From: Bacilli bacterium
GTDB taxonomy: Bacteria; Bacillota_I; Bacilli_A; ML615J-28; CAG-313
Assembly (NCBI GenBank): GCA_017463365.1
Contig: JAFTPH010000029.1
Span: 1-63,925, forward strand
Length of the DNA stretch: 63,925 nucleotides
Direction of reading: 5' to 3'
A program made the translations under genes and the position numbers. Each line of letters starts with the position of its first letter. Positions within the stretch are counted from its first letter, which is position 1. The notes beneath the pieces are model-generated. The model did no database searches, was not told the origin of the DNA, and saw only the letters and a list, made by a program, of their open reading frames with translations. This document shows positions 24,194 to 42,206 of the stretch, in pieces.

Positions 24194-24240
24194 AATTATT
24201 AAGGGGATATTCTAAAACTTATAATAGGTTGGAATATAAT

Positions 24241-24555: not shown

Positions 24556-24560
24556 TTTGG

Positions 24561-24585: not shown

Positions 24586-24602
24586 TTTTATTCATAATTA
24601 AG

Positions 24603-24624
24603 TTAATTTATACGTATAAATTAA
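24603..24624. promoter_or_regulatory. Perfect 22-bp palindrome in front of the lipoprotein pair
   Basis: Arms TTAATTTATAC and GTATAAATTAA abut with no spacer. TATAAA at 24615-24620 could serve as -10 with TTCATA (24591-24596) 18 bp upstream, so a repressor bound here would block initiation. The ribosome-binding site AGGGGGA follows. Confidence 0.55.
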
Positions 24625-24639
24625 TAGGGGGAATGTTTT

Positions 24640-25425: not shown

Positions 25426-26177
25426 TTGGTTGTTTGTTGGTTGTTTTTTTATGTTTACTGTCTTCTTGTAAAAAAGAAGAGTTTTCCTATTTAGGGGTTT
25501 CGAAAGTTGAAATAACATGTAATTTATTTTCAGAGAAACCAAGAGTTACTATATATATGTTTTCAACTAAAGACTTTAAGGATTTGAAGCTAGTTGAGAA
25601 TACTTTAGTTAACTCTTATACTAATTATACAGTTGAGGGAAAACTTCTTAATGGTGAAAAAATAATCGAGGGATATGTTCATGTTTTTGACATTTCTTTT
25701 GTCTGTTTGGAATTTGTTTTACAAGAGCTGAAAGTTTGTCATCAAGAAAATATATATAAAGTACCAATCGGAATGTATCAGACTTTGTTTTTAGAAGGAA
25801 GTACAATGGATATATCATCGTCTATTGATGTAGATAATCACTTGGGAAAAATTAATGTTCAAAATAATCTTTATTGTCCTATTTATTATTTAAGTCATGA
25901 GATAGTCAGTATTAGGAAAGCACAAGAAGTGTCTAAATGTTTTGTAGATCGGACGGTTGTCTATAGTAAGAACCTTAAGCATTTTGAGATTTTTAAAATT
26001 GAAATGCGAAAAAAATACCACCAAGTTGGTGGTATTGTACAAACGAAGTTTAAATCATCTATGTCTGAGTATTTGATTTATACAAGTTATTATTATTCAT
26101 TATTGCCATCAGTTACTGAATTAGTAGAAGATGGTGTTAGTATCGAGTCACTTGAGACTATTAAAAAATCATGGTAG
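25404..26177 (+). CDS. Predicted lipoprotein, paralogue 2
   Basis: 257 residues. Signal peptide with lipobox LLSSC (Cys at about 22), then EEFSYLGVSKVEI, similar to the preceding lipoprotein. It begins 22 bases inside the upstream gene. Its 3' end runs 85 bases into the convergent hflX gene, and its codons about 203-211 contain the inverted repeat that acts as the hflX terminator on the other strand. Function unknown. Confidence 0.65.
   Translation: MFRFNRLIGCLLVVFLCLLSSCKKEEFSYLGVSKVEITCNLFSEKPRVTIYMFSTKDFKDLKLVENTLVNSYTNYTVEGKLLNGEKIIEGYVHVFDISFVCLEFVLQELKVCHQENIYKVPIGMYQTLFLEGSTMDISSSIDVDNHLGKINVQNNLYCPIYYLSHEIVSIRKAQEVSKCFVDRTVVYSKNLKHFEIFKIEMRKKYHQVGGIVQTKFKSSMSEYLIYTSYYYSLLPSVTELVEDGVSIESLETIKKSW
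26009..26036 (-). terminator. hflX terminator embedded in the lipoprotein coding sequence
   Basis: Read on the minus strand, AATACCACC (26036-26028) pairs with GGTGGTATT (26022-26014), 5-nt loop, and runs into seven U (26015-26009). On the plus strand there is no T-tract, so only minus transcription would stop. Confidence 0.8.
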
Positions 26178-27475
26178 AGATTATAATAGTATTCTGATAC
26201 TCGGCAGGTTACCATTATACCATCGTTTTCGTATGTAGTATGTAAAACGGTGGCTTTTTCTTTTAGATTATTATATATATTACCTAAATTATATGGCAGT
26301 TTGTAAGTGACAACATATTCTTTAGGGAAAAGGTGAGTTTCAATTTCTTTGATTAATTCTTCATAACCTTGTTTAGTAATAGATGAAATCATTAAAGCAT
26401 CAGGATAAACACTTGTGATAAAACGTGGTTCTTTGATTAAATCGACTTTGTTAAATACAAAGATACTAGGAATGTCTAAAGCGTTTAGTTCTCTTAAAAC
26501 TTCCCTGGTTGTTTCGATTTGTTTATCCATATAAGGGCTGCTTGCGTCAACAACGTGAACAATTAAAGACGCTTCTTTAATTTCTTCTAGAGTTGATTTG
26601 AAAGACTCAACTAGGTGATGAGGAAGTTTGGAAACGAAACCTATTGTATCTGTCAGTAAGAACTCGTGATTATTTTCCAGTTTTATGCTTCTTGTGGATG
26701 TTGATAAGGTTGCAAATAACATATCTTTCACAAAGACATCTTTATCACTCTTATTAGTTAAGTTTAAGAGAGTGTTAATAGTAGAACTCTTTCCTGCATT
26801 TGTGTAACCAACAAACGCAACAACTTTTAAGTTGTTATTAGAACGTTTTTCTCTAGTGATACTTCTAGCTTTGGTGATTTTTTCTAGCTCGTTTTTTGCT
26901 CGTAAAATATTTTTTTCAATATGACGACGGTCAAGCTCTAGTTTAGTTTCTCCAAGTCCACGTCTTGCTCCACCACCACCGGCACCTCCACCAGTAACTC
27001 TTGAAAGATAGGTTCTTGAGCCAATCAAACGAGGAAGATTATATTTTAATCTAGCTATTTCAACTTGAAGACTTGCTTCCTTTGTTTTAGCTCGGCGTTC
27101 AAATAGATCTAAAATTAGCATTGTACGATCAAAAACGGTGATGTCATCCCCCAAATATTTTTTGATATTTTTTAATTGGGCAGGGGATAATTCATCATTA
27201 AAAATAACTAAATCGGCATTTAAGCTTTCCACAATCATTTTTAATTCGTTTAGTTTTCCACTTCCGATGTAGGTAGAATTTAGAGGTGAAGAAAGATTTT
27301 GGTAAACTTCATCAATAACCTCAATGTTTGTGGCAGCACATAGGTTTTTTAATTCTTCAGTCTCATACGAAAAAATTTCATCATCGCCAGTGTTGATACA
27401 AACGATAACGCCACGTAAAACATCTAATTCATTTAATGCTTGATCTTCTAGAAAGTTATTGTATGTTTTATTCAT
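26093..27475 (-). CDS. hflX: Ribosome-associated GTPase HflX
   Basis: 460 residues from the ATG at 27475, chosen because GGTGAT precedes it by 4 nt; the ATG at 27487 overlaps that site. N-terminal HflX domain with the glycine-rich GGGAGGGGARRGLGETKLE (about 162-180), G1 GYTNAGKS (223-230), G3 DTIGFVSKLP, G4 NKVDL. It splits stalled or hibernating 70S ribosomes. Its last 85 bases overlap the convergent lipoprotein gene. The 5' leader adjoins the end of the tnpB element. Confidence 0.93.
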   Translation of the reverse strand: MNKTYNNFLEDQALNELDVLRGVIVCINTGDDEIFSYETEELKNLCAATNIEVIDEVYQNLSSPLNSTYIGSGKLNELKMIVESLNADLVIFNDELSPAQLKNIKKYLGDDITVFDRTMLILDLFERRAKTKEASLQVEIARLKYNLPRLIGSRTYLSRVTGGGAGGGGARRGLGETKLELDRRHIEKNILRAKNELEKITKARSITREKRSNNNLKVVAFVGYTNAGKSSTINTLLNLTNKSDKDVFVKDMLFATLSTSTRSIKLENNHEFLLTDTIGFVSKLPHHLVESFKSTLEEIKEASLIVHVVDASSPYMDKQIETTREVLRELNALDIPSIFVFNKVDLIKEPRFITSVYPDALMISSITKQGYEELIKEIETHLFPKEYVVTYKLPYNLGNIYNNLKEKATVLHTTYENDGIMVTCRVSEYYYNLYHDFLIVSSDSILTPSSTNSVTDGNNE

Positions 27476-27560
27476 ATTTATCACCATATATAGTATATCA
27501 CAAAATTAAAAAAACATCATTCTTTTATAAGAAACAAAATATCAAATAATTAGTTCAATT
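27476..27560 (-). other. Presumed right end / reRNA (omega-RNA) region of the tnpB element, running into the hflX leader
   Basis: In known TnpB elements the guide RNA covers the 3' end of tnpB and extends past the element's right end. Here that places the guide segment between the tnpB stop and hflX. On the minus strand a small hairpin TTCTT-ATAA-AAGAA is followed by a T7 run. Exact ends cannot be set by eye. Confidence 0.35.
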
Positions 27561-28848
27561 TGATTTTTTGTCTTATTGGTAGCACTTGACCTCTATTCCT
27601 AAGGGCTTGATAGATATCTTGCCTTTCGGGTTTACATTTTCTCATTATGTTTAGTGCCGCATTAACATCGGCATTAACTATTTTTTTATCTTTTGTTTGG
27701 AATAGTCCGCGGTTTAACCGTATACCTTGATAATTTTTATGGAATTTTATTTCTTCGTTATCATAAAAAGAGCATTTAGAGGTATAAGCTTCGCTTGTTT
27801 CAGTGTAAATTATTCCTTGTTCATGACATAGAATTTTCAGTCTATCTTTGAATTTACTAAGTGGAATATAAAAAAAGTTTTGGTTAAATCGTTGATTTGT
27901 TGATTTAGAGTTTTGTTTTTTTACTCCGGTTAGTTTAAAGTTTTTGTTGTATCCAACAATAATTTCTGATATTTCTTTTTTAATACTGTAGGTAATTACT
28001 TGTTTTGCTGCTTTGTAAATGGCATCTTTTATTTGTCTATTCCTTTTATCAGTAACTTTATATTCCATTAGGGTTAGTTTTTTTTGATTTGGCTTTTTTG
28101 TTTTTAAAAGAGCTAGCCTTTTATTGTAAAAACGGTTTAGTGATTTTAAATATCTTCCGTCCATAATTAAAGCCTCATTATTAGATGTAACGCATGTCGC
28201 AAGGTTATTAATACCAAGATCAATTGCCATTAAATTATTTGATTTATAGGTTATAAAGCTTGGTTGTTCAGCTATATAGACAAATTCAATGTTATAGGTT
28301 AAACCTTTAAAAAGTGGAACGATTCTTAATTGTTTAATGGTTTTATCTAAAATTGGTTTAGGAATTTTAAAATAGATATAAAAGCTTCTTTTTAATTCTG
28401 ACTCCCTAATGAATTTATTGATTAGTTCATCTTCAAACATTTTGTTAAATGTTTTACTTGATTTGGCTAAGCTAGATAAGGGAAGCTTTATATATTTTTC
28501 TTTATTAATTGTAATTGGTCTAATTTGCTCGTTATACAACAAATAATAGTCGTTTTGTTTTAGATATTTAGGTAATTTATTATACCCTTTAGTAAAGTTA
28601 TTAAAGGTTGTATAAGCGTTATGAATTATGTTAGTTGAAGAACAAGTATTTAGTAATGTAAAGTTCTCATTTGATTTTAGTAATGAGGTAAGTTCACTCT
28701 TTGAGTGGGTTTTGTTTGTTTGAAAATATATTTGACGTAATTCATAAAGAGCAGAGTTATAGAGATTTTTAGATATATGACACAAGAGTTTAAGAAGAGA
28801 GCGTTCGTTTTTCTTAGGTGTGTAGCGATATTGTAAAGTTTTATACAT
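27550..28848 (-). CDS. tnpB: IS605-type TnpB (RNA-guided nuclease), rearranged RuvC
   Basis: 432 residues. OrfB/TnpB layout: N-terminal helix-turn-helix region, then RuvC-like core with AIDLGINNLAT (D210), the RuvC-II strand EIIVGYNKNFK lacking the usual Glu, TETSEAYTSKCSF with Glu 353 as the probable substitute, and VNADVNAALNI (D394). No Cys4 zinc knuckle is present (only SKCSFYDNEE). This pattern recurs in a known TnpB branch whose RuvC-II Glu has moved. Strong GGAGGTG ribosome-binding site. No tnpA (Y1 transposase) lies nearby, so the element is a lone or IS1341-type tnpB. Confidence 0.9.
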   Translation of the reverse strand: MYKTLQYRYTPKKNERSLLKLLCHISKNLYNSALYELRQIYFQTNKTHSKSELTSLLKSNENFTLLNTCSSTNIIHNAYTTFNNFTKGYNKLPKYLKQNDYYLLYNEQIRPITINKEKYIKLPLSSLAKSSKTFNKMFEDELINKFIRESELKRSFYIYFKIPKPILDKTIKQLRIVPLFKGLTYNIEFVYIAEQPSFITYKSNNLMAIDLGINNLATCVTSNNEALIMDGRYLKSLNRFYNKRLALLKTKKPNQKKLTLMEYKVTDKRNRQIKDAIYKAAKQVITYSIKKEISEIIVGYNKNFKLTGVKKQNSKSTNQRFNQNFFYIPLSKFKDRLKILCHEQGIIYTETSEAYTSKCSFYDNEEIKFHKNYQGIRLNRGLFQTKDKKIVNADVNAALNIMRKCKPERQDIYQALRNRGQVLPIRQKIKLN

Positions 28849-28905
28849 TTTTTCACCTCCTCAATATATATAATACGCAAAATTTGAAGATTTTACTTTT
28901 TCGAA

Positions 28906-28926
28906 AAATAGGTATTTTACCTATTT
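28906..28926. promoter_or_regulatory. 9-bp inverted repeat between tnpB and the ClpC-like gene
   Basis: AAATAGGTA / TACCTATTT, 3-nt spacer. A TATAAT (28940-28945) lies downstream. It may be an operator for the ClpC-like gene or the left-end hairpin of the tnpB element. It does not match the CtsR heptad repeat. Confidence 0.45.
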
Positions 28927-28961
28927 AAAATCATATATTTATAATACAGGAGTTGATGATT

Positions 28962-30653
28962 TTGCTTGAAAATTATAGTAATAAAGCGGTAAAGGTAATT
29001 GATGATGCTAAAAGAATCGCTGAAGAAATGAATAGTGTAATAGTAGGAAGTGAGCATTTATTGCTTGCATTATATAATACGCCAGATAGTGTTTGTGAGT
29101 TTTTATTGTCTGAAAGACTCATATCTAAAGAGGATCTTGAAAGACAGATTAATGAGTTAATAATTTTACGTAGTGGATTGGGAGAATCGATGTATACAAA
29201 AGAGTTGACAGATATTGTTAAACTTGCCTCATCAACTGCTAAAAGATTAAAGTGTGATTATGTTTATGATGAACATTTGTTTTATGCGATGTTAATATAT
29301 GGAGAGAATGTAGGAAAAAATGTCTTGACAAAATTAGGGGTGGATGTGCAAGAATTAATAGAAGATGTTGAAGATATTTTGGATTTTAATGAAGAAAAGA
29401 TCCATCCGTATCCTTTTTTGACAAATTTATCGCTTGTTGAAGAGGTTCATCCTTATGTCTCTTTAAGTAACTATTTGGAGCGATTAAAGATAATTATGAT
29501 GAAACGTCAAAAAAACAATGCTTTATTGATTGGTTCGGCGGGGGTTGGGAAAACCGCAATCGTTGAGGCTTTGACTAAATATTTACCAGATGGGTTAATA
29601 TTTAGACTAGATTTGGGTAGTATGGTGTCAGGGACAAAATATAGAGGTGAATTAGAAGAAAAGATTATTCTTGCTATGGAATATTTGAAAGAGAAAAAAG
29701 CCATTCTTTTTATTGATGAAATTCATAATATTGTAGGAGCAGGTTCAAATGAGGGATCTTTAGATGTTGCAAATATTTTAAAACCATATCTTGCTAGAGG
29801 GGAAATTAGAATTATTGGGGCTACAACTTTAGATGAGTATTATCAATTTATTGATAAAGATAAAGCGTTACTTCGAAGATTCCAAAATGTTTATGTAGAA
29901 GAACCAACTATTGAAGAGACAAAATATATTTTAGAAAATATTAAATCATCTTATGAAGAATATCATGGGGTTAATTATAGTATAGATGATTTAGAAGAGA
30001 TTGTAAAAAGTACTTATCGTTTAATGCCAAGTAGAACGTTTCCGGATAAAGCTATTGATGTTTTGGATGAGGTAGGGGTTAGGTATAAAATATATCATAA
30101 ACCTATAAAAACATTAATTAGAGATGTAGTGTTGGATATGTCAGGAATTAGGGTGGTTACACTTGATGAATTAGGGAAAATAAAGCTTGTTTATGAAAAT
30201 TTTCGAAAGTTTTATGAAGAATATTTATGTTCAGAAGTGTTAAAAAAACCGATTCTTTCTTTTAGAATCGGGGATGATTTTGAAATGAATAAGTTTTTTG
30301 ATGATTTGAAAAAAGTTTTTTCTTTTAAAGAAGAATCATATTTAGAGATTGATTTGGAATCTTATTATGATGCAAGTAGTATGTCAATGTTGATTGGTTC
30401 ATCTAAGGGATATGTTGGTTATGATAGTGGGGGAATTTTGTCAGAGCATATCATTAAACGTCCGTTTAGTGTTGTGTATTTTAAGAATTTGGATGCTGCC
30501 CATTTTGTTATTCAAAATTTTATAAAGCGTTTGGCAAGGGTTAATCATTTTCTGGATAATAAGAGTCGAAAAGTATATTTATATAACACTATTATTTTAT
30601 ATAGCGAAAAAGCAAGGGAATCAAAAGTCTTAGGAATTGGGAAAAATAATTAA
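28962..30653 (+). CDS. ClpC-like AAA+ protein with one active and one degenerate ATPase domain
   Basis: 563 residues from TTG 28962, 9 nt after AGGAG; upstream TTG/ATG are too close to that site. N-terminal Clp_N repeats (about 1-140), D1 AAA domain with Walker A GSAGVGKT (about 190-197) and Walker B LFIDEIHN (about 249-256), and arginine-finger region LLRRFQNV. The second domain is truncated and dead. RIGDDFEMN stands where GPTGVGKT belongs and VVYFKNLDAAH replaces the DEIEKAH Walker B, although the pore motif KGYVGYDSGG remains. ClpC is normally about 810 residues. No M-domain insertion is visible. It may be an adaptor or regulator of a full ClpC rather than an unfoldase. Confidence 0.8.
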   Translation: MLENYSNKAVKVIDDAKRIAEEMNSVIVGSEHLLLALYNTPDSVCEFLLSERLISKEDLERQINELIILRSGLGESMYTKELTDIVKLASSTAKRLKCDYVYDEHLFYAMLIYGENVGKNVLTKLGVDVQELIEDVEDILDFNEEKIHPYPFLTNLSLVEEVHPYVSLSNYLERLKIIMMKRQKNNALLIGSAGVGKTAIVEALTKYLPDGLIFRLDLGSMVSGTKYRGELEEKIILAMEYLKEKKAILFIDEIHNIVGAGSNEGSLDVANILKPYLARGEIRIIGATTLDEYYQFIDKDKALLRRFQNVYVEEPTIEETKYILENIKSSYEEYHGVNYSIDDLEEIVKSTYRLMPSRTFPDKAIDVLDEVGVRYKIYHKPIKTLIRDVVLDMSGIRVVTLDELGKIKLVYENFRKFYEEYLCSEVLKKPILSFRIGDDFEMNKFFDDLKKVFSFKEESYLEIDLESYYDASSMSMLIGSSKGYVGYDSGGILSEHIIKRPFSVVYFKNLDAAHFVIQNFIKRLARVNHFLDNKSRKVYLYNTIILYSEKARESKVLGIGKNN

Positions 30654-30732
30654 AAATAAAGAGACTGAATTTGTGGATAATTAAAGTGTAAGATTTTTAG
30701 TTAACATTTTACTTTTTAAGAAATTAAAATCA

Positions 30733-30741
30733 TGATATAAT
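30733..30741 (+). promoter_or_regulatory. Extended -10 promoter of the helicase-like gene
   Basis: TGATATAAT (TG-N-TATAAT). It lies too close to the ATG at 30745 for that start, supporting the ATG at 30766. Confidence 0.6.
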
Positions 30742-30765
30742 AAGATGTTAATAAGTGGTGATTTT

Positions 30766-33700
30766 ATGAAAATGTTAAAAGAAGCAGATTATCGAATTCA
30801 ATCAAATAATGGACATTTAAAAAACATCTTAGAGGAAAACTACTATATTGAGCTTGGGTGTATTAATTACAAGGTTTTAAGTAGATTATTAGCTGGGGAA
30901 GAAACTCTAATTTCTGATTGTATATACAGTGAACTTACAAGTGTGGGAATTGGACAAATTTCTGAAGAAGCAGAAAATAGTTTAACTTATCAACTTGCAT
31001 ATTTAATGCATTTGAGAAAAAAGAGTTCTTCTTGTAAGATTTTTTTGACATGCAATTTCATAAAATACTACGATAAAGAAAAACGTGAGTTATATGCGCC
31101 AATCGTGCTAATTCCGGTTAATATAGATTATCAAAAGGGAATTATGATTAAAGCGAGTGAAGCAATTCCTAATCAATTATTATTAAAAGAATTAGCCAAT
31201 TTAACAGGATTTGAAATGCCATATCCTGATCGTTTAAATACTTTAACACAAATTGATAATTTCTCTTTTGAACTTTCTAAAAAATCACATTGTGATTTAC
31301 AAATTGGTAATTTCTTAACTTATGCGAATGTTGAGTATCCGGATTATAAGGGAGATAATGAAAGATTTGATATTGAGCGTTCAATATATGAGTTTACTCC
31401 TAAAGCTATTACGGATGAGTATTATAAAAATGTTAAGGCGATTATGCCAACCAATATTCAACAAAAGTATGTTATTTTAAAAGCTGCGAAGGGTGAAAGT
31501 TTCGCAGTTGATGGGCGTCTTGGATCAGGTAAGACATATACTATTTTAAATATCGTTGCTGATTTTATCGCAAAAGGTAAAAAGGTATTATATGTAAACC
31601 AAGATAGTGATGCACTTGCGAGATTCGAAAATGAGTTATATAAACATCATATGGGAGTTTATACACATAATTTTGATCAAATTTATCCAATCGATCATCA
31701 AATTGAAATTTTACTGCCAGAATTAAAAAGTGATGTAAATGAAGTAAAAATACCAGATGAGTTATTTGAATATGAAGAAGCTTTAAATGAAAAACATCAT
31801 GGTTTAACTTATAAACAGATGACAGAAGTCATTGCTTATTTAAATAACAAGTATCCATCTTTGGAGTTAATTCCAATTGAGAATTCGTTAGAGCACTTTG
31901 AAATTGCTAAAGTCAGAGATTATTTAGAAAAGATTGAAGCCAATCTTAAATATATTGATGAGTTGAAAGATAATATTTGGGCCAATATTGAAGATTATTA
32001 TAATCACCAACATCAACGTGAGTTGATTAATGCGGTGACAGAATATAAGAATGCTCAACTTGATTTCAATAAGTATTTTATGGAGTTTTGTACAAGATAT
32101 GAAATTGCTAAACCAGATAACTTTATTGAAGCTCACCGTTTAATTTCTGATGTTAGAACTTTCTCGCTTACAAAAGTACCACCAAAATGGTCAAATAGTA
32201 AAGTATATAAAGAAGCTCATTTGGCATTAGATGAGTTGTCAAAAGATATTTCTTCTTTAAATGTATTAGAACGTAATTATGAAAAATTAGTAGTTAATAC
32301 ATATTGTAAAGGGGATGCGGAAAGAATTTTAGATACAATTAAGTATAAGCATTTAAAAGATAACGCGGATAATCATATTAATCAGTTGTTATCACCGTAT
32401 TCACCGCTTGGACAAATTATTAATGATTTACGAAGAGAGCGTCAAGCAATTCGTTATGCAAGTAATGAACTTGAAGAATTATTAGAAATTCAAGAATTAC
32501 CTAATGATATATATTCATTTTTAACAAAGATTGAACAATTATTATCACATACTAATGTTCAAAGTAATTGGGTTAAGATGTTTGTATCAAATAAAGCGGA
32601 ACATTTAAATGTTAATAAAACGTTAGAAAATTTAATCATGACTTCTCAAGAGTTACATGATGATATTTTACAATATGCGATTAGACCAGAAATGTTTAAG
32701 TATGAAAACTTAAAGTTAATGACTAATAATGATCGTTTTGAAAGAATTGTTTCAAGTAATTTTGATCGTCGGGTGATGAGAGCTAATAAGAAGAGTGCTG
32801 ATCGTTTATATCAAACTATTTTAGAGTTTATGGATATGGTTAGTGAGGTTATTAAGCTTGCAAGTAGATATAGTTTAATATCTAATGCGAAAATGGAAGA
32901 TTTCTGTGAATCTTATCGTAATTGGATTGATTTTACTAATAATTTATCGATTGAAGAGTATGATTATTTAGTATCACTTGTTCAAAAAAATGATTTATAT
33001 TATCTTCTAAAAAATAATAGTTTCTTAAATATTGTTTTAGATTTTAATGAACGAGTAGAAACCATTAATGGAATCTTTAATCATATGTTAATATATGGTA
33101 TTAATATTGATGGGGTTGGAGTGTTAGAGAAATTAAGTAATATTGATGAATGGATTGATTACTTAATTAGAGTTATTAATTGTAAAGAACAATTATATAG
33201 TTTATTTATCAATAACGCAAGTATTACTTATAAAGATGTAATGCAGCTAATTGGTATGGACCGTGAGTATTATGCGTTATTTGAAAAAACTGAAGAAAAG
33301 GGAATGTATTATTATAGTTTACTTGGAGAAAGTTATCAAGGGCTTTATACGGATTGTAATGCGATTAGTATTTTGATGGAACATTTTGAGGCTTTCCAAG
33401 AAAAACTTATTAATAAGCGACATATTACTTCATTGTTAAGTACGTTTGGGTTTAAACAAATGGTTGAAGAATATGGTGAGTTGGAGGTTTTATCGGAAAG
33501 GGTATCATCATCTCACAGAGTCTTTAGTCGTTTCTTTAAAGGGGGACAAACAAGTTTATTGGAGTGTGATTTGAATAAAGCAGTTCAAATTATTCGTCAA
33601 TATGAGGTTAAAACTAATCAATTAACATATATGTTTGAAATATTAGAAAGTTTAAGATATTTTGATAAACTTGGTTTATATTCGTTGGTTGCAGGAATCA

Positions 33701-35067
33701 AGAATTCAGAGTATACAACGATGCTTGCTGAAAGATATATATATTCAACATATAAAATTTATCGTGAAGAATTAATTAACAAGCATCCAATTTTAAATGA
33801 ATCATTTAAAATTTTAGAATATTTTGATGATTTAGAAGATGCAGAACTAGGTTATTGTTTAAATAATATTAGTAATTTAATGGCTCTTGTGCCAGATGTC
33901 GAAAAGAAGATTAAAGATCGAAGAGGGGCAAGTGCTAAGTTCAATGAATATAATAAAATGATTGAATTTGATTTGAAGAATTGTTTAATTTTCTTAGCGA
34001 ATGTGGATGTGTTTAATAGTGATTTAATATTATCATTATTTGATGTTATTATTGTGGATGATTGTCATATAGCCTCATCTAATAAATATCATCGTATAGA
34101 TGAAGCACCACAAGTGTTGTTATTTGGGGATAAGGGGTTTAGAACATCAGTTTCTAATAGTTTATTAAACCGTATTAATCCTGGAACAATTGTGCATTAT
34201 AATCGTCGTTATTTGGGAATGAGTGATTATTTTAAAAATGATTGGCATGTTAAAAATCAATACATATATGATTTTAATCAAAAAGTAAAGGTAGAAAAAC
34301 AAGCAAGTGTTAAGAGTTTAGTAGAAATGGTTGTACATTATTATAATCAAAATCCTAAACCAGATTTAACGATTAATATTGTGGTTTTTTCATCTAGTAG
34401 TAGAAGAAAGATTTATAGTGAATTAGTAAATAAGTTATTAGAAAATTTAGATACAAGTGAGGTTATTAAGTTATTAGCTAATAAATTCAACATTATTAAT
34501 GGTTCGAATGAAGATGCTAGTTATGCGGATGTGGCGATAATTATGTTTGATGATATTCGTGATTATGAAATTTCATCACAAGAGTTGATTTTAAGAAACT
34601 TTACTTGTGTTTCTGATCAAGTGATTCTTACATATTTAGATAATAAAGATGATATTTTAAATAAAGAGATCGAAGCAGGGGTAAAGGCTATTATGATGGA
34701 AAGCGAAAAGAAAATACCACTTACAACGCCATTTACTGAGTTAATTATTGACCGCATGAAAGAGCGTAAGCTTGATGCGGAGGCAGGATTTGGAATGTTT
34801 GATATTGTGGTACGTAATCAAAATAAAGCTAACGTGGGAATTATTATTGAAGGTAGTGTTAAGAATGATTCGTATTTCTTAGTTGATGATTATCAGTATT
34901 ATTATGGGGAATATATTAAAAAAGGTTGGAATGTATTTGTGTTCTTTATGGAGGACATAATTGATAATTTAGATAAGCGTATTGATGAGGTTGTTACATT
35001 AGTTATAAATGATGATGATAATGCTAATCAGTTATCATTCATTGATGAGGATATAACTAATGAATAG
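30766..35067 (+). CDS. Large DUF4011-like superfamily I helicase/nuclease-related protein, degenerate
   Basis: 1433 residues from ATG 30766 (GGTGAT 3 nt upstream). N-terminal APIVLIPVNIDYQ resembles the APLLLIPVEL strand of DUF4011 helicases. P-loop VDGRLGSGKTYTILN (about 247-261), DEAD-like strand IIVDDCHIAS (about 1092-1101) and a C-terminal segment (about 1320-1410) with FDIVV, IIIEGS and KKGWNVFVFF follow, where related proteins carry a Vsr/DUF559-like nuclease with IDL and ECDG. The Walker B DE is DD and the nuclease acidic residues are partly replaced. A long helical region (about 330-1050) separates the motifs. DNA/RNA processing or a defence-like role is possible. Overlaps the ankyrin gene by 8 bases. 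Confidence 0.65.
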   Translation: MKMLKEADYRIQSNNGHLKNILEENYYIELGCINYKVLSRLLAGEETLISDCIYSELTSVGIGQISEEAENSLTYQLAYLMHLRKKSSSCKIFLTCNFIKYYDKEKRELYAPIVLIPVNIDYQKGIMIKASEAIPNQLLLKELANLTGFEMPYPDRLNTLTQIDNFSFELSKKSHCDLQIGNFLTYANVEYPDYKGDNERFDIERSIYEFTPKAITDEYYKNVKAIMPTNIQQKYVILKAAKGESFAVDGRLGSGKTYTILNIVADFIAKGKKVLYVNQDSDALARFENELYKHHMGVYTHNFDQIYPIDHQIEILLPELKSDVNEVKIPDELFEYEEALNEKHHGLTYKQMTEVIAYLNNKYPSLELIPIENSLEHFEIAKVRDYLEKIEANLKYIDELKDNIWANIEDYYNHQHQRELINAVTEYKNAQLDFNKYFMEFCTRYEIAKPDNFIEAHRLISDVRTFSLTKVPPKWSNSKVYKEAHLALDELSKDISSLNVLERNYEKLVVNTYCKGDAERILDTIKYKHLKDNADNHINQLLSPYSPLGQIINDLRRERQAIRYASNELEELLEIQELPNDIYSFLTKIEQLLSHTNVQSNWVKMFVSNKAEHLNVNKTLENLIMTSQELHDDILQYAIRPEMFKYENLKLMTNNDRFERIVSSNFDRRVMRANKKSADRLYQTILEFMDMVSEVIKLASRYSLISNAKMEDFCESYRNWIDFTNNLSIEEYDYLVSLVQKNDLYYLLKNNSFLNIVLDFNERVETINGIFNHMLIYGINIDGVGVLEKLSNIDEWIDYLIRVINCKEQLYSLFINNASITYKDVMQLIGMDREYYALFEKTEEKGMYYYSLLGESYQGLYTDCNAISILMEHFEAFQEKLINKRHITSLLSTFGFKQMVEEYGELEVLSERVSSSHRVFSRFFKGGQTSLLECDLNKAVQIIRQYEVKTNQLTYMFEILESLRYFDKLGLYSLVAGIKNSEYTTMLAERYIYSTYKIYREELINKHPILNESFKILEYFDDLEDAELGYCLNNISNLMALVPDVEKKIKDRRGASAKFNEYNKMIEFDLKNCLIFLANVDVFNSDLILSLFDVIIVDDCHIASSNKYHRIDEAPQVLLFGDKGFRTSVSNSLLNRINPGTIVHYNRRYLGMSDYFKNDWHVKNQYIYDFNQKVKVEKQASVKSLVEMVVHYYNQNPKPDLTINIVVFSSSSRRKIYSELVNKLLENLDTSEVIKLLANKFNIINGSNEDASYADVAIIMFDDIRDYEISSQELILRNFTCVSDQVILTYLDNKDDILNKEIEAGVKAIMMESEKKIPLTTPFTELIIDRMKERKLDAEAGFGMFDIVVRNQNKANVGIIIEGSVKNDSYFLVDDYQYYYGEYIKKGWNVFVFFMEDIIDNLDKRIDEVVTLVINDDDNANQLSFIDEDITNE

Positions 35068-35566
35068 TAAACGTGTTATTTTAAGCAATTTAGCAAGGGA
35101 TATTAGAAATAATTCGCTGGAGCTTAAAAGTTTCAAAAAAACGCTTCAAAAGGCCTTAAAACAAGGTGTTGAATTAAATTCTAAAATATATCGTGGTAGA
35201 ACGATATTATATTACGCGGTTAAGAGAAATAATCGCCGGTTAGTTAGAATGTTGATTAAATCAGGAGCTAATCCGAATATTTGTGATGATGATTTTAATT
35301 CACCGTTACATCATGCGATATTAATGAATCATTTTATTTGTGTTAAAGAATTATTAAAAATGAATGTGGATATTAATATTCCGGGAGAGTTTGATCAAAC
35401 ACCACTTCATACGGCTGTGTTAAAGGGGAATTTAGATATTATTAAGCTTTTAATCGAAGGAGGAGCTGATATTCATCAAGTTGATGAAAAGAACTTAACT
35501 GCTTTAGATTATGCGAAAGACGAAAAAGATGAAAAAATAATTTTATTTTTAGAGAAAAGTTATTAG
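35060..35566 (+). CDS. Ankyrin-repeat protein
   Basis: 168 residues. After a basic helical N-terminus (about 1-45) come about four ankyrin repeats, for example RTILYYAVKRNNRRLVRMLI, SPLHHAILMNHFICVKELL, TPLHTAVLKGNLDIIKLLI and TALDYAKDEKDEKIILFL. No signal peptide, so it is probably a cytoplasmic protein-protein scaffold. It starts inside the stop region of the helicase-like gene and is followed 12 nt later by cdaA, linking all three translationally or transcriptionally. Confidence 0.88.
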   Translation: MNSKRVILSNLARDIRNNSLELKSFKKTLQKALKQGVELNSKIYRGRTILYYAVKRNNRRLVRMLIKSGANPNICDDDFNSPLHHAILMNHFICVKELLKMNVDINIPGEFDQTPLHTAVLKGNLDIIKLLIEGGADIHQVDEKNLTALDYAKDEKDEKIILFLEKSY

Positions 35567-35578
35567 GAGGTGTAGAAA

Positions 35579-36388
35579 GTGAATTGGACAATAATTAAAA
35601 ATATTGGCGAATTTATTCAGAATTATACAGGTAATGAAGTATTTGGATATGTTCGATTAGTTATCGATGTTTTATTAATTTTAGCTGCTGTTATCTTTGT
35701 TTATCGTATTTTTATGCGTTATACTAATAATCGAATCTTATGGTTTTTAACAGGGGCACTGCTTCTTTTGTTTGTGTTAATTATTGGTTTAGATTTACAA
35801 ATTTTATATGCTTTATATCCATATATTGTTTGTATTGTGGTAGCAGTATGGATATTCTATAATGCGGGAAAATTAAAAACTGTTTTTGGAGATATGGTTA
35901 AATATAAGAATACGAAGAATTTCGTACTAGATGAAAGTTCTCAAGAAGAGTTAATTTCAACATTAATTAAGAGTGTTGAATATTTATCAAGTCGTCAAAT
36001 TGGGGCGATTATTACAATTGAAAAACAAGATTCATTAAATACATATATTAATAAAGGGACTAAGCTTGATGCGGAAATCTCATTTGAGTTATTAAGTACA
36101 ATCTTTATGCCAGGAACAGCCTTACATGATGGAGCCGTAATTATTAGAGGTAAGCATGTTATGAGTGCAGGAGCTTTCTATCCTTCAACTGATAAGAATG
36201 ATATTCCAAAGAATTATGGGTCACGTCACCGTGCGGCGATTGGGATTAGTGAAGTAACTGATGCGTTTACAATTGTTGTTTCAGAAGAAACAGGAAAAGT
36301 GGCGTTAACGCTTGATGGTACAATTACTCCAGATGTATCGCTTGAAAGTTTACGTGTTTATTTAAAACAAAATATTATTGTTGAGTAG
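35579..36388 (+). CDS. cdaA: Diadenylate cyclase CdaA (DacA), makes c-di-AMP
   Basis: 269 residues from GTG, with a strong AGGAGG 7-8 nt upstream. About three N-terminal membrane helices (about 25-95), then the DAC domain with LHDGAVIIRG (about 182-191) and GSRHRAAIGISE (about 214-225), the DGA and RHR motifs of active diadenylate cyclases. It condenses two ATP into c-di-AMP, which controls osmolyte transport and wall homeostasis. The gene normally following, cdaR, is absent and another membrane protein takes its place. Confidence 0.95.
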   Translation: MNWTIIKNIGEFIQNYTGNEVFGYVRLVIDVLLILAAVIFVYRIFMRYTNNRILWFLTGALLLLFVLIIGLDLQILYALYPYIVCIVVAVWIFYNAGKLKTVFGDMVKYKNTKNFVLDESSQEELISTLIKSVEYLSSRQIGAIITIEKQDSLNTYINKGTKLDAEISFELLSTIFMPGTALHDGAVIIRGKHVMSAGAFYPSTDKNDIPKNYGSRHRAAIGISEVTDAFTIVVSEETGKVALTLDGTITPDVSLESLRVYLKQNIIVE

Positions 36389-36396
36389 GTGAAAAG

Positions 36397-37587
36397 ATGG
36401 TAAATATTTTAAATCTTATTCCGGATGCTTATTTAGTTAATTTGTTTTTAGTGGCTACAACAGTAGTAGTTTTAACCCTTGGAATAATTGGTATTTGTGT
36501 TTATCATAAGCTTGCGTATATTTCATTACCTTCTATTTTTGTAGTTGATGCATCATTAATTGTTTTATCAAAATTATTAGTGCTTCCAGCATGGATTAAT
36601 TTAATTTATGATGGAATTTTAGTAATTATTTTAGGACTAGCTGTTTTGGAGTTTTTAAAAGCAGCAGAAATTGAAAAAGCAAGAAATAGAAATGCGAACA
36701 ATTTCTTAGGTAATGCGGCATACGATTATTATTATTCAACTAATAGTAAAGATAAAATCGTTGATGCTAGTGATACTTTTATGGAACTTGTAAGCTTAGA
36801 TTTAAATGAATTACGTAAGTCAAAGGGTTTTCAAACAATGTTTGGAGAGCTAAAAATTCAAAAGGTTAATGGGCGTGATGTAACTGAAGAGATAGCTTTA
36901 AAGTTATTCTTTGATTATGATAAAGGGCGCGCATCTAATGAAACATATCAATTTGATTTACAAGTTTTAATTGATAATGAGGTAGTTTTCTTAAAAGGAG
37001 TTGTACAACCAATTCATTATCGTGGTAAGTTTATTGGACGTAATGTTTATTTAATTAACGATAAATCAGCAACGTTTGATAGTTTAAGAGGAACTATTAA
37101 AGGGATGGTAAAGGAACTTGAAGATGCAAGTCGTCAAACATATGCGTTAATGTCATTGACTAAAAATGCGATTATGTATTTTGATTATAAGACAGGAACT
37201 TATGTGGCAACTGAAGCGATGAATAATTATTTAGAGGTTACTCAAAAAGAATTTACAATTGAAGAATTCTTTGATATGATTCATCCTGAAGATCTTCGTT
37301 CTTATCAAGAACAAGGTTCAATGATTAATTCAATGATGGCTAATAGAAGTAAGCTTCGTTTATATATCAATAAAAAGTATTATGATGTTTATGATGATTC
37401 ACTATATTTAAATAAAGATTCTGGTCTTGTTTCAATTATTTCTTTAGTAAGTGATCCAGAAGTTGTTAGTGTAAAACATCAACAAGAAGTGAAGAATGCG
37501 AATATGTGGGCTACTTTAGAAGAGATCAATCCAAGTGATGTAATGGATGATTTAATGAATGAGTTAAAGGATAAAAATAATGAATAG
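36397..37587 (+). CDS. Membrane-anchored protein with two PAS-like domains, in the cdaR position
   Basis: 396 residues. N-terminal three helices (about 10-90), then two alpha/beta PAS-type segments. The first is about 115-230 (KDKIVDASDTFMELVSLD, VVFLKGVVQPIHYRGK). The second is about 250-345 (NAIMYFDYKTGTYVATEAM, EEFFDMIHPEDLRSY, which looks like PAS_3), followed by an acidic tail. No GGDEF, kinase or phosphodiesterase catalytic motif is seen. It lies 8 nt after cdaA and overlaps ispDF by 8 bases. By position it may be the regulatory partner of CdaA. It has no YbbR repeats, so it is not CdaR. Confidence 0.7.
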   Translation: MVNILNLIPDAYLVNLFLVATTVVVLTLGIIGICVYHKLAYISLPSIFVVDASLIVLSKLLVLPAWINLIYDGILVIILGLAVLEFLKAAEIEKARNRNANNFLGNAAYDYYYSTNSKDKIVDASDTFMELVSLDLNELRKSKGFQTMFGELKIQKVNGRDVTEEIALKLFFDYDKGRASNETYQFDLQVLIDNEVVFLKGVVQPIHYRGKFIGRNVYLINDKSATFDSLRGTIKGMVKELEDASRQTYALMSLTKNAIMYFDYKTGTYVATEAMNNYLEVTQKEFTIEEFFDMIHPEDLRSYQEQGSMINSMMANRSKLRLYINKKYYDVYDDSLYLNKDSGLVSIISLVSDPEVVSVKHQQEVKNANMWATLEEINPSDVMDDLMNELKDKNNE

Positions 37588-38665
37588 TGGTATTATTTTA
37601 ATGGCTGGTAAGGGTGAAAGAAGTAAGCTTAGTTACAATAAAACTCTTTATCAGTATTTGGGGAAACCACTCTTTATGTATTCAGTCATTGCTTTCTATA
37701 ATAATAAAGAGCTTGATGAGATTTATTTGGTTATTGATCCAAGTGATGAAGAAGAGGTTCTTAAGTATTTAGAAGAGTATGATAGGGTTAAGCTTGTTTA
37801 TGGGGCCTCATCAAGAGCTGAAAGTTTAAAGAATGCGTTAAAAGTTATTAATGCTGATAAAGTAGTAGTTCATGATGCGGCAAGACCATATGTTACATCA
37901 AGTGATATTTCTTCTGTTTTAGCATCTTTAGAGTCTCATGATCTAGCAACGCTATATCATAAAGTGGTGGATACTATCAAAGAAGGAGTTAAAACTTTAA
38001 AGCGTGATGAGTTAAAAGCGGTCACAACCCCACAAGGATTTACGAAAAAGTGTATTGAGAAAATCTTAAGTAATGGAGAAAATGTTTATGATGAACTTCA
38101 AATCTTTGAAAATGATGATGTAAAGATAGCTTTTATTGAGGAAACACACAATAATAAAAAATTTACGGATGCGAATGATTTTGAAAATCCTAAATACTTA
38201 ATTGGTCATTCATTAGATTTCCATCCGCTTGTTGAGGGTAGAAAATTAATCTTAGGGGGAGTTGTATTTGATTATCCTTTAGGTTTAATGGGTCATAGTG
38301 ATGCGGATGTTGTGTATCATGCGGTGGCAGAAGCAATTATTGGCGCTTTAAATATGGGCGATATTGGAACATTGTTCCCTGATACAAGTGATGAATATAA
38401 AGATATTGATTCTAGTTATTTTCTTAAGTATATGAAAAAAGTCTTAGAAGAAAATAATTATTCAATCAATAATCTAGATATTATTATCTATTTAGAAAAA
38501 CCGAATCTAAAAAATTATAAGCGACAAATGGCTGAAAATATCGCGGAAAACTTAGGCATTTCAAGTGATGTTGTTAATGTTAAAGCAACAACAATGGAAA
38601 AGCAAGGAGTTATCGGCAATGGTCATGGTATCGCAAGTGAAGCGGTAGTATTGTTAAAAAGATAG
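37580..38665 (+). CDS. ispDF: Bifunctional IspD-IspF isoprenoid enzyme
   Basis: 361 residues. IspD half (about 1-205): IILMAGKGERSK, GASSRAESL, VVHDAARPYV, KAVTTPQGF. IspF half (about 208-361): GHSLDFHPL with the metal His, LMGHSDADVVYHA, MGDIGTLFPD, NVKATTMEKQG. Together they make MEP-pathway CDP-methylerythritol and methylerythritol cyclodiphosphate (the kinase IspE is elsewhere). It overlaps the PAS-like gene by 8 bases, so it closes the cdaA operon. Confidence 0.93.
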   Translation: MNSGIILMAGKGERSKLSYNKTLYQYLGKPLFMYSVIAFYNNKELDEIYLVIDPSDEEEVLKYLEEYDRVKLVYGASSRAESLKNALKVINADKVVVHDAARPYVTSSDISSVLASLESHDLATLYHKVVDTIKEGVKTLKRDELKAVTTPQGFTKKCIEKILSNGENVYDELQIFENDDVKIAFIEETHNNKKFTDANDFENPKYLIGHSLDFHPLVEGRKLILGGVVFDYPLGLMGHSDADVVYHAVAEAIIGALNMGDIGTLFPDTSDEYKDIDSSYFLKYMKKVLEENNYSINNLDIIIYLEKPNLKNYKRQMAENIAENLGISSDVVNVKATTMEKQGVIGNGHGIASEAVVLLKR

Positions 38666-38688
38666 ACTAATCCTTAAGGATTAGTCTA
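38663..38688 (+). terminator. Terminator-like hairpin after ispDF
   Basis: Perfect 26-bp palindrome with arms TAGACTAATCC and GGATTAGTCTA. Only a short T stretch follows. Confidence 0.6.
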
Positions 38689-38702
38689 TTTACTTATTTA
38701 AT

Positions 38703-38731
38703 TTGTCAAAAAAATTTAAAAGTGCTATAAT
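38703..38731 (+). promoter_or_regulatory. Promoter of the flavin-reductase-like gene
   Basis: TTGTCA (38703-38708), 17-bp spacer, TATAAT (38726-38731). It excludes the ATG at 38732 as the start. Confidence 0.78.
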
Positions 38732-38755
38732 ATGGATATATATAGGAGAATGGTT

Positions 38756-39679
38756 ATGAGTGAAAAATTTAAAGATTTAAGAATAGTAGATAATTTTTAT
38801 CAAACATCATCTTTTTTTCCAATGCCGCTTACTTTAATTGGAACTTTAGATGAAAAGGGAAATACTTCGTTTGGAGCTTACTCTTTAGTTTTCCCTTATT
38901 ATATTGCGGGAAAAGATTATTATGCGATGGTATTAGAATGTCGTAATTCTTCTAATACTTGTAGAGGGTTGTTAAGAAGTGGTAAGTGCACAATTAACTT
39001 TATGCCTTATTCAAAAAAGATTTTTAAAGAATGTGTTAGACTTGGTTTCCCAGGTGATACGCCAGAAGAAAAAATGAAAGAGTTTAAATTTGGATTAGAA
39101 GATGGGTTATCTTGTGTAGATCATCCAGAAGAGGCTTGGCCAAAGGTTATAAGTGAAGCTTATCAAGTATTTGAATGTACATGGGTTAAGGAATTAGATA
39201 ACGCTGAAAATGATAAGATTTTAGATGAATATAATGGACCATACCATGATTTTAATGGGATTACTTCAAAATATGGGGCACATTTTATTTTAAAGATTGA
39301 CCATATCTTAATGAAAGAAAAATATCACAATGCGATTATCAATGGGGTTACAAGAAGTAATTTCGCTCCAATTCCAACTAACTGGGGGTATCGTGATTCA
39401 AAGAATTTCTGGTGTTCAGGGTTTGTTAAACCACATGCGGAAGGAATTCCAGATAAAGAAGTGGATTTACAATCAATTAGATATGCGGCAGATCGAGCAG
39501 ATGATGTCGTTAAATTTACTGATGATGCTTTAAAAATGTTAGTTAAAGTTCCACGTCCATTTTTAAAACTAGTTTTAAAGGGTTGTGTAGATTGGGCTAA
39601 AGAAAATAATTGTGAGTTAATTACAGAAAAAGAAATCGCCATTATTAACGATAAACGAGCAAAAGAAAAGAAGAAATAA
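38756..39679 (+). CDS. Flavin-reductase-like protein with a PCP_red-like C-terminal domain
   Basis: 307 residues from ATG 38756 (AGGAG 7 nt upstream). N-terminal FMN-binding split barrel (SFFPMPLTLIGTLDEKGNTS, NTCRGLLRSGKCTINF). The C-terminal 55 residues, VKFTDDALKMLVKVPRPFLK...WAKENNCELITEKEI, resemble the small PCP_red helical domain. Likely a flavin-dependent reductase; substrate unknown. Single gene between a promoter and a strong terminator. Confidence 0.75.
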   Translation: MSEKFKDLRIVDNFYQTSSFFPMPLTLIGTLDEKGNTSFGAYSLVFPYYIAGKDYYAMVLECRNSSNTCRGLLRSGKCTINFMPYSKKIFKECVRLGFPGDTPEEKMKEFKFGLEDGLSCVDHPEEAWPKVISEAYQVFECTWVKELDNAENDKILDEYNGPYHDFNGITSKYGAHFILKIDHILMKEKYHNAIINGVTRSNFAPIPTNWGYRDSKNFWCSGFVKPHAEGIPDKEVDLQSIRYAADRADDVVKFTDDALKMLVKVPRPFLKLVLKGCVDWAKENNCELITEKEIAIINDKRAKEKKK

Positions 39680-39683
39680 CAAA

Positions 39684-39721
39684 AAATACCAACGATATCA
39701 TTAGATATTGTTGGTATTTAT
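39684..39721 (+). terminator. Terminator after the flavin-reductase-like gene
   Basis: 16-bp stem (39684-39699 with 39704-39719, one G-T pair), 4-nt loop, T-rich 3' side. Confidence 0.85.
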
Positions 39722-39731
39722 TTCATAATTA

Positions 39732-39740
39732 TGATATAAT
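39732..39740 (+). promoter_or_regulatory. Extended -10 promoter of the Y-family polymerase operon
   Basis: TGATATAAT, extended -10, 20 bp before the start codon. No LexA-type operator was recognised by eye. Confidence 0.5.
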
Positions 39741-39760
39741 TTAGAAAAAGGAAGGTGTTT

Positions 39761-41236
39761 ATGAATAAAATATATTTGTGTATCGATTTAAAATCTTTCT
39801 ATGCATCTGTTGAATGTGTAGATTTAGGATTAAATCCCTTAACTACTAATTTAGTAGTTGCTGATTCGTCAAGAACAGAGAAAACGATTTGTTTAGCGGT
39901 AACTCCGGCTTTAAAATCATTTGGGATTAAGGGGAGAGCAAGATTATTTGAAGTTATTCAAAGAGTAAATGAGGTTAATAAAGAAAGAAAAAATAAAGTA
40001 AAAAGATTAACTGGTAAGTCTTATAATCTTAATGAATTAGAAAAAGATCAAAGTCTCGCAGTTGATTTTATAACTGCTAAACCTAGAATGGCACATTATA
40101 TCAAAGTTAGTGCGAAAATTTATGAGATATATCTAAAATATGTATCAAAAGAAGATATTCATGTTTATTCAATTGATGAAGTATTTATTGATGTTTCTAA
40201 TTATTTAAAAACTTATAGATTAACACCAGGGGACTTTGCGAAAAAAATGATTATTGATGTTTATGAACAAACAGGTATTACTGCGACCGCTGGAATTGGG
40301 ACTAATATGTATTTAGCTAAAGTAGCAATGGATATGGTTGCTAAAAAGATGAGACCTGATAAATACGGGGTACGAATGGCATACCTTAATGAAGAAATGT
40401 ATCGAAAAGTTTTATGGGATTATCAACCAATTACTGATTTTTGGCGAGTAGGAAAAGGATATGCGAAAAAACTAGCTGAATTTGGTCTTCATACAATGGG
40501 GGATATTGCCTTATTTTCGACTAAATATGAAGATATTTTGTATAACCTTTTTGGGGTAAATGCCGAATTATTAATTGACCATGCTTGGGGTGTTGAACCA
40601 TGTACGATTGCTCACATTAAAAATTATCAACCAATGGGTAAATCAATTGGTTCAGGGCAAGTATTACATTGTCCATATGATTTCGCCAAAGCAAGATTAA
40701 TTGTTAAAGAAATGGTTGATGCTTTATCTTTAGATTTATTTGATAAATGCATTTTTACTAATAAAATTGTTTTAACAATAGGTTATGATATTGAAAACCT
40801 AACTAACCCTAAACTTAGACAAAGTTATGATGGCGAAATAACAACCGATTATTTAGGACGAGAAATACCAAAACACGCTCATGGTACAGCGACAATTAAG
40901 AGATTTACTTCTTCATCGCATTTATTAACCAAAGCAACGATTGAATTATATGATCAAATTGTGAATAAAAATCTTTTAATTAGAAGAATTAATATTTCAG
41001 CAATCAATCTTGTTGATAAAGAACCAACTGATAGTTATGAACAATTAGATTTGTTTACTAATGTGGAAGCCCTACAAGAAGAAAATGAAATGTTGGAAAA
41101 AGAAAAAAGACGTCAGCAGGCGGTATTAAATATTAAAAAGCGTTATGGAAAGAATGCGATTATGAAAGGAATGAATTTAGAAGAAGGAGCAACAATGAAA
41201 GAAAGGAATGACCAAATTGGTGGTCATAAGGCTTAA
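39761..41236 (+). CDS. Y-family (UmuC/UvrX-like) translesion DNA polymerase
   Basis: 491 residues from ATG 39761 (GGAAGG 5 nt upstream; the GTG at 39755 overlaps that site). Palm motifs CIDLKSFYASVE (Asp, Phe, Glu) and YSIDEVFIDV (catalytic D/E), TATAGIGTNMYLAKVA, little finger after about 280, and a QLDLFTN beta-clamp-binding motif near the C-terminus. It closely resembles the B. subtilis UvrX/YqjW type of mobile and chromosomal UmuC. It performs error-prone bypass. A YolD-like gene follows after 2 nt, as is usual for this subfamily. Confidence 0.92.
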   Translation: MNKIYLCIDLKSFYASVECVDLGLNPLTTNLVVADSSRTEKTICLAVTPALKSFGIKGRARLFEVIQRVNEVNKERKNKVKRLTGKSYNLNELEKDQSLAVDFITAKPRMAHYIKVSAKIYEIYLKYVSKEDIHVYSIDEVFIDVSNYLKTYRLTPGDFAKKMIIDVYEQTGITATAGIGTNMYLAKVAMDMVAKKMRPDKYGVRMAYLNEEMYRKVLWDYQPITDFWRVGKGYAKKLAEFGLHTMGDIALFSTKYEDILYNLFGVNAELLIDHAWGVEPCTIAHIKNYQPMGKSIGSGQVLHCPYDFAKARLIVKEMVDALSLDLFDKCIFTNKIVLTIGYDIENLTNPKLRQSYDGEITTDYLGREIPKHAHGTATIKRFTSSSHLLTKATIELYDQIVNKNLLIRRINISAINLVDKEPTDSYEQLDLFTNVEALQEENEMLEKEKRRQQAVLNIKKRYGKNAIMKGMNLEEGATMKERNDQIGGHKA

Positions 41237-41238
41237 TT

Positions 41239-41664
41239 ATGGAAAAATATCAAAGTATTATAGATAAGCCATATCAAAAATCAACAGCCAGACCTCATAT
41301 GTCATTAAATGATAGAGCGGCTCAGTTTGCCCCTTTTGCGGCACTAACAGGGTATGAGGCAGAACTTAAAGAAGTATCAAGGCTTACAGAAGAGAAGTGT
41401 GAACTAACTGATGAAGCAAAAGAACTGATTAATACCAAATTAAACTATATTATTACTTTTAAACTTCAAGAAGAAATTTTGGTTACCCATTTTGTCCAAG
41501 ACTTAAAAAAACAAGGTGGAAGTTACAAAACAGTATTTTTACAAGTTAAAAGAATAGATGAAGTAACAAAAGAACTAATCTTTGTTGACAAAACAAAAAT
41601 AAAACTAGAAAATATAATAAACGTAAACTCTAAAACTTTAGATTCGATTTTTAAAGATTTTTGA
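41239..41664 (+). CDS. YolD-like protein
   Basis: 141 residues. DRAAQFAPFAALTGYEAELKE is the signature of the YolD-like family, which is commonly encoded beside UvrX/YqjW-type polymerases and thought to work as a UmuD substitute. No Ser-Lys protease dyad like UmuD is apparent. Ends with TGA, another example of TGA used as a stop. Confidence 0.88.
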   Translation: MEKYQSIIDKPYQKSTARPHMSLNDRAAQFAPFAALTGYEAELKEVSRLTEEKCELTDEAKELINTKLNYIITFKLQEEILVTHFVQDLKKQGGSYKTVFLQVKRIDEVTKELIFVDKTKIKLENIINVNSKTLDSIFKDF

Positions 41665-41678
41665 GAAAGGAGCCTAAT

Positions 41679-42206
41679 ATGAAATTTAAACCAAACTATG
41701 TTAATAATTTAATAATCGCTATGATAACATTATTTATATCAATTTATCCAATGCTTTTGGCAATATTTTTAATAATTGATCCATCAGTGGTTAAGGATTT
41801 TCTTCCAACAATACCGGGTCTGTTTATAATTTCAATATTATTTATAGTTGGTTCTAATTTAATTAATTTTGTTATAGGTCTTTTTATTAAACCAAAGATG
41901 TATATATATCAAGAGGGTTTTATCTATAAAAATAAAGAATATAAATATATAGATATATCTAAAATGGAATTTGATATTGGTTCTATAAGTAGAACAAGAT
42001 CTGATCCATGTGTTTTAACTTTGTATTTAAAAAATAAAGGTCTATTAGAAATTAGACATCCATCAATTATTATGACCTTAATAATTAAAAAAAGAAGCTA
42101 TGATGCTCCTCTTAGAATAAAGGGATGGAAGTGGCTTTTAGTTATGATAGCAATTTCTACAGGTATTGGGTTGATGATTGGTCTTCTTGGTATAATTGGA
42201 GGATAG
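41679..42206 (+). CDS. Membrane protein of the paralogous 41.7-45 kb cluster (member 1)
   Basis: 175 residues from ATG 41679 (AAAGGAG 7-8 nt upstream). Two N-terminal helices, a cytoplasmic segment IKPKMYIYQEGFIYKNKEYK...IDISKMEFDIGS...RSDPCVLTLYLKN, and a last helix near the C-terminus. The same order and several identical residues (KPK, GF/RF-YK, D-S/V, FD-G-SR/KTR/S, EP/DPC-L-LY, SP/HPS) occur in member 5 at 44508. The soluble part may be a small PH-like beta fold (inference). Not a recognised family. Confidence 0.6.
   Translation: MKFKPNYVNNLIIAMITLFISIYPMLLAIFLIIDPSVVKDFLPTIPGLFIISILFIVGSNLINFVIGLFIKPKMYIYQEGFIYKNKEYKYIDISKMEFDIGSISRTRSDPCVLTLYLKNKGLLEIRHPSIIMTLIIKKRSYDAPLRIKGWKWLLVMIAISTGIGLMIGLLGIIGG

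Follow-up and report, generated by a model that had tools for sequence, protein, structure and literature searches.

A PAS-type membrane protein encoded beside cdaA in place of CdaR in Acholeplasma/Anaeroplasma-like Bacilli and several related families

CdaA is often the sole, housekeeping cyclase for cyclic di-AMP (c-di-AMP). In the Bacilli bacterium assembly GCA_017463365.1, whose 63,925-nucleotide contig JAFTPH010000029.1 was analyzed at full length (hereafter the window, a whole contig of a 1.74-Mb genome that is 97% complete), cdaA (35579 to 36388, forward strand) is followed directly by neither cdaR nor glmM; instead, the next gene (36397 to 37587, forward strand) encodes a 396-amino-acid membrane protein with PAS domains, termed PASp here. 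That CdaR has been replaced by this PAS membrane protein is well supported at the genomic level, and it suggests a different way of controlling c-di-AMP in Acholeplasma/Anaeroplasma-like bacteria and several related families. A domain search of the window's own genome returned no match to YbbR/CdaR anywhere, and no GlmM was found in the 38% of that genome that was read. The absence of cdaR and glmM after cdaA agrees with a first-pass annotation of the window that had been made from its letters; a separate cdaR elsewhere, which that annotation had named among the findings that would count against its reading, was not found. Searches of an open-access library, which test novelty to a limited degree, returned no published report of a PAS protein beside cdaA.

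The class sample comprised 130 genomes, 117 of which carried a gene for a diadenylate cyclase (DAC) domain, one each; families are labelled f1 (the window's own), f2 (the other family of the same order), and f3 onward (further families). PASp was encoded in all 15 genomes of f1, each time adjoining cdaA, an adjacency that is therefore far beyond chance. Among the 25 f2 genomes examined, 20 had the PAS protein gene directly after cdaA or one gene (mgsA) later, and the remainder consisted of one whose contig ends too early and four with the PAS protein elsewhere or not located. PASp likewise adjoined cdaA or was one gene away in f4, f10, f13, f15, f21, and f22, as in most of f2. Across the sample, a cdaA-linked PASp (within about 4 kb) occurred in 42 of the 117 DAC genomes and YbbR/CdaR in 44, with no genome encoding both (Fisher p 4e-12, a value that overstates the number of independent events because the exclusion clusters by family). 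On the CdaA tree, two changes of the PASp label suffice versus 18.3 when labels are shuffled, which is compatible with one origin; together with the clustering by family, this points to one or two lineage-level switches and not 42 independent events. In the CdaR families, a YbbR gene lay directly 3' of cdaA, and most of the eight loci read had a GlmM-sized gene behind it. In f7 such a gene was often found directly after cdaA, and in f8 a two-helix protein of 76 to 79 amino acids was encoded between cdaA and a confirmed glmM (L193:7330-7566, L194:7759-7986). Judged by eye, this small protein has a C-terminal helix similar to the one that anchors CdaR in the membrane, and it may be a CdaR without YbbR domains. 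Separately, the f13 and f22 loci encode a protein of ~780 amino acids with an FAD/NAD-binding start between cdaA and PASp (L198:8918-11260; also L207, L208, and L222).

No Pfam or NCBIfam family was assigned to PASp, and sequence profiles detected no PAS domain in the window protein itself. Its AlphaFold model, made with 30 relatives in the alignment, had a mean pLDDT of 81.6 and placed N-terminal transmembrane helices at residues 7-36, 43-59, and 65-106, and alpha/beta PAS domains on the cytoplasmic side at about 108-221 and 256-350; the C-terminal tail is helical and weakly predicted. When the model was compared with the PDB by Foldseek, the top match was the LOV-PAS tandem of Brucella LOV-HK (E 3.7e-11), and FixL, DosP, and PpsR came next. 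As modelled, PASp carries the PAS fold, in line with the three helices and two PAS-like segments first read from the sequence. Extracytoplasmic YbbR repeats were not seen in the model, which has cytoplasmic PAS domains in their place, and neither the profiles nor the model revealed a DHH/DHHA1 phosphodiesterase domain in PASp. The earlier suggestion of light or redox sensing fared less well: among the 15 f1 members, no Cys column was common to at least six and no His was invariant, and haem, LOV, or thiol sensing common to the family is accordingly not supported.

Both GGDEF and PAS profiles match relatives of PASp. Those in f2 are mostly 480 to 545 amino acids with an extra domain modelled as GGDEF (a few are shorter, at about 400 to 425); those in f10, f15, f21, and f4 combine three transmembrane helices with PAS-PAS-GGDEF in 509 to 528 amino acids; and those in f13 and f22, of about 380 to 420 amino acids, apparently have the three helices followed by PAS-GGDEF. 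The GGDEF signature was altered in the relatives inspected (SGIKF, TGIEF, SNVDY, and similar), and no cyclase activity would therefore be expected of them. The domain is absent from f1 PASp; the f1 protein has lost a degenerate GGDEF domain that most of its relatives carry.

The cyclase itself, a 269-amino-acid protein with a GTG start, has N-terminal membrane helices and a DAC domain and scores 207 bits against TIGR00159, over the cut-off. Its DGA and RHR motifs were kept across 22 aligned sequences, with DGG replacing DGA in two. With these active-site motifs intact, CdaA is a predicted diadenylate cyclase, and its gene is the only one with a DAC domain in its genome. The arginine that contacts GlmM (R126 in B. 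subtilis, its position deduced from the alignment) was considered because its loss might mark GlmM-free operons; it varies both with and without GlmM and was set aside as uninformative. Also set aside were additional copies of cdaA, in some cases accompanied by ybbR (L098 in G015:C205; G011:C47 and C71); they lie in bins that are 5-6% contaminated and likely come from other organisms. The f19 CdaA, about 400 amino acids in total, has a long low-complexity C-terminal extension (L212:6926-8119), with open frames of up to 554 amino acids. Degradation of c-di-AMP is predicted to be provided separately by GdpP, which was present in 39 of the 43 genomes of the order. In the window's own genome, GdpP (L233:4261-6705, G000:C12) is encoded in a single frame as PAS-GGDEF-DHH-DHHA1 fused to the N and C domains of ribosomal protein L9, and GdpP frames of 812 to 848 amino acids suggest that this fusion is general in the order. 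With a full GdpP elsewhere in the genome, PASp as a replacement for GdpP was ruled out.

In the window, cdaA and PASp lie within a tight run of six forward-strand genes (28953 to 38665) in which every gap or overlap is at most 91 bases. The run begins with genes for a ClpC-like protein (28953-30653, 566 amino acids), a degenerate superfamily 1 (SF1) helicase-like protein of the DUF4011/anti-phage ProA-Hhe type (30745-35067, 1440 amino acids), and an ankyrin-repeat protein (35060-35566, 168 amino acids; Pfam Ank E 4e-27), and it ends, after cdaA and PASp, with ispDF (37580-38665), which encodes a bifunctional enzyme of the methylerythritol phosphate (MEP) pathway. The junctions are, in gene order, a 91-bp gap, an 8-bp overlap, a 12-bp gap, an 8-bp gap, and an 8-bp overlap. 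Gene order, coordinates, and the overlapping or nearly abutting frames from the helicase-like gene on were as the first-pass annotation had described them, and only its 1433-amino-acid length for the helicase-like protein needed adjusting, having been counted from a later start than the first ATG. A strong terminator-like hairpin with a 14-bp inverted-repeat stem (38660-38691) closes the unit. Just 5' of the ClpC-like gene lies a weak candidate promoter on the forward strand (TTTACC-18-TATAAT, 28916-28945), proposed from its match to the consensus; promoter-like sites in the region were no commoner than in shuffles. No known RNA families were detected in 23000-42000. Between hflX and the operon, a gene on the reverse strand (27550-28848) encodes an IS605 OrfB/TnpB-like protein (OrfB_IS605 and Cas12f1-like TNB domains) with no obvious partner transposase. 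The window also encodes a MurC-like Mur ligase (6485-7750, forward strand), even though its closest relatives with a name have no cell wall; the 38% of the genome that was read yielded no further Mur ligase.

Proteins encoded beside cdaA in Firmicutes bind and regulate CdaA, CdaR doing so via the membrane region of the cyclase (PMC8573169), and such operon-encoded partners offer a precedent (PMC8573169; PMC13289029). By analogy, PASp may act as a membrane sensor and control CdaA where CdaR is missing; we hold this to be the best reading and give it just short of an even chance. It would describe an alternative module for c-di-AMP synthesis in which CdaA works with PASp instead of CdaR and GlmM: like CdaR, PASp would associate with the cyclase in the membrane, and a change in the PAS domains that depends on a ligand or on dimer state would switch CdaA from inactive to active (head-to-head) oligomers or back. 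Any cue would be cytoplasmic or membrane-borne and not extracytoplasmic, and the degenerate GGDEF domain of the related families, lost in f1, forms a further module akin to the sensory half of GdpP. A wider proposal is that this represents a second, independent control of CdaA in at least eight families, in which a cytoplasm-facing PAS/degenerate-GGDEF sensor replaces CdaR-GlmM and responds to an internal cue and not to cell-wall precursors, and which in the Acholeplasma/Anaeroplasma-like lineages is also coupled to a conserved ClpC-like/helicase-like/ankyrin complex; we offer it tentatively and regard it as somewhat doubtful.

Several observations, in addition to the clustering by family, weigh against regulation of CdaA by PASp. 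The DAC gene of f7, f8, f16, and f18 is adjoined by neither a YbbR-type CdaR nor PASp, so that loss of CdaR does not require PASp. An unrelated gene often separates cdaA from PASp in f2 (mgsA) and in f13 and f22 (an FAD oxidoreductase). In G036 and G016, PASp is parted from cdaA and still lies with ispDF, and G103, a genome 97% complete, has no DAC gene and encodes a PASp-like PAS-GGDEF protein (L231:4097-5260) just before ispD/ispF. These three genomes mean that PASp cannot be purely a CdaA accessory in every genome; the expectation of a conserved gene order held in that relatives mostly keep PASp beside cdaA, and was tempered by three clear separations. The same genomes favor the main rival explanation, whereby PASp would be a membrane sensor tied either to ispDF (MEP pathway, isoprenoids) or to the state of the membrane at large, and its adjacency to cdaA would reflect operon hitch-hiking with no action on CdaA. 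The tie of PASp to ispDF is indeed no weaker than its tie to cdaA: in most loci ispDF comes next after PASp, or else follows a 5-formyltetrahydrofolate cyclo-ligase-like gene. We consider this rival rather unlikely, and it leaves unexplained why no CdaR-bearing genome of the sample has PASp and why, of the 45 genomes in which PASp is matched convincingly, 42 have cdaA no more than about 4 kb away from it. It is improbable, too, that PASp, instead of regulating the cyclase, serves as a receptor for, or an effector of, c-di-AMP or some other nucleotide made by its neighbour. The binding site would then be the degenerate GGDEF domain of its relatives, as their altered signatures (SGIKF, TGIEF) and the modelled GGDEF fold might allow, yet f1 has lost this domain and keeps both PASp and its position.

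The genes upstream of cdaA bear on two further explanations. One, which we hold to be very improbable, derives the locus from an ancestral Bacilli disA locus by exchange of disA for cdaA, of radA for the helicase-like gene, and of yacL for PASp. The functional order matches that of B. subtilis, clpC-radA-disA-yacL-ispD-ispF, and the order to which the window's genome belongs lacks both RadA (0 of 43 genomes over the cut-off) and DisA (one DAC per genome in uncontaminated bins). Sister families, however, lack clpC at this position, their order being dus-hflX-(ribonucleotide reductase)-cdaA-PASp-ispDF; the ClpC-like and helicase-like genes therefore seem to have been inserted and not to be ancestral. 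The block of ClpC-like, helicase-like, and ankyrin genes is conserved upstream of cdaA in f1, f2, and f4: an orthologue of the helicase-like gene was found throughout the order (43 genomes, a few of them bins with a split or partial copy) and otherwise in f4 only, and the ankyrin gene directly precedes cdaA almost throughout the order (exceptions, G035 and G036). DUF4011-type paralogues in f21 and others are not beside cdaA and were set aside. In f10, f13, f15, f21, and f22 the locus consists of cdaA-PASp-ispDF alone, often downstream of dus and hflX, and because the block is missing there it looks like a later, clade-specific addition to an older cdaA-PASp-ispDF unit. Its conservation where present could favor the other explanation, also raised by the first-pass annotation, that these proteins degrade or remodel the cyclase complex; to this we give almost no credence. 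The ClpC-like protein keeps its Clp_N repeats and an intact first AAA+ domain (D1) that aligns to B. subtilis ClpC, but its second (D2) has no P-loop and has K-N in place of the Walker B D-[E/A], and the alignment stops at ClpC residue 660 of 810. The ClpP loop lies beyond ClpC residue ~660, in the missing C-terminal part, and the protein thus has neither the two active AAA+ domains nor the ClpP-docking loop of a ClpC unfoldase. The block's absence from five families with PASp, and the location of the ClpC-like gene elsewhere in several f1 and f2 genomes, also speak against turnover. The helicase-like protein, for its part, matches DUF4011 and, at E 3e-25, the ProA model, though its scores fall far short of the ProA/Hhe cut-offs; it keeps the motif I P-loop and motif II DD(A/C)H, with motifs V/VI unrecognizable and the nuclease residues not kept. 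As a guess at what the block does, a part in assembly or scaffolding seems the most plausible.

The mechanism of CdaR remains unclear even in model Firmicutes (PMC8573169). Several families in which a PAS sensor has naturally taken the place of CdaR provide a second system, open to direct test, for comparing the demands on a partner of CdaA. They also provide a lead on function for a protein family that no Pfam or NCBIfam model covers.

Like the DUF4011 helicases of anti-phage ProA/Hhe systems, the helicase-like protein is large and multidomain, with an N-terminal DUF4011 and a P-loop; unlike them, it is degenerate in V/VI and the nuclease residues, far below their cut-offs, and conserved before ankyrin-cdaA. 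In B. subtilis, ispD and ispF lie near the disA locus, a likeness to the window locus. The Bacillus disA locus (radA-disA; PMC8573169) similarly pairs a DAC gene with a nearby gene for a P-loop ATPase, whereas here the cyclase is of the CdaA type, RadA and DisA are absent, and sister families have no clpC-like gene at the locus. PASp shares with PAS-GGDEF and tandem PAS sensors (LOV-HK, FixL, DosP, PA0861) the PAS-PAS or PAS-GGDEF fold and the layout of signalling helices, but has no kinase, cyclase, or phosphodiesterase output and no conserved cofactor residue. With GdpP (TM-PAS-degenerate GGDEF-DHH-DHHA1) it shares a membrane segment and PAS, to which most relatives add the degenerate GGDEF; it differs in lacking the DHH/DHHA1 catalytic part and in having three N-terminal helices and usually two PAS domains. 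Finally, as in the cdaA-cdaR-glmM operon of Firmicutes (PMC8573169), the membrane cyclase CdaA and a membrane protein encoded directly 3' of it form one unit, but here the partner carries cytoplasmic PAS domains instead of extracytoplasmic YbbR repeats, and ispDF, not glmM, comes next.

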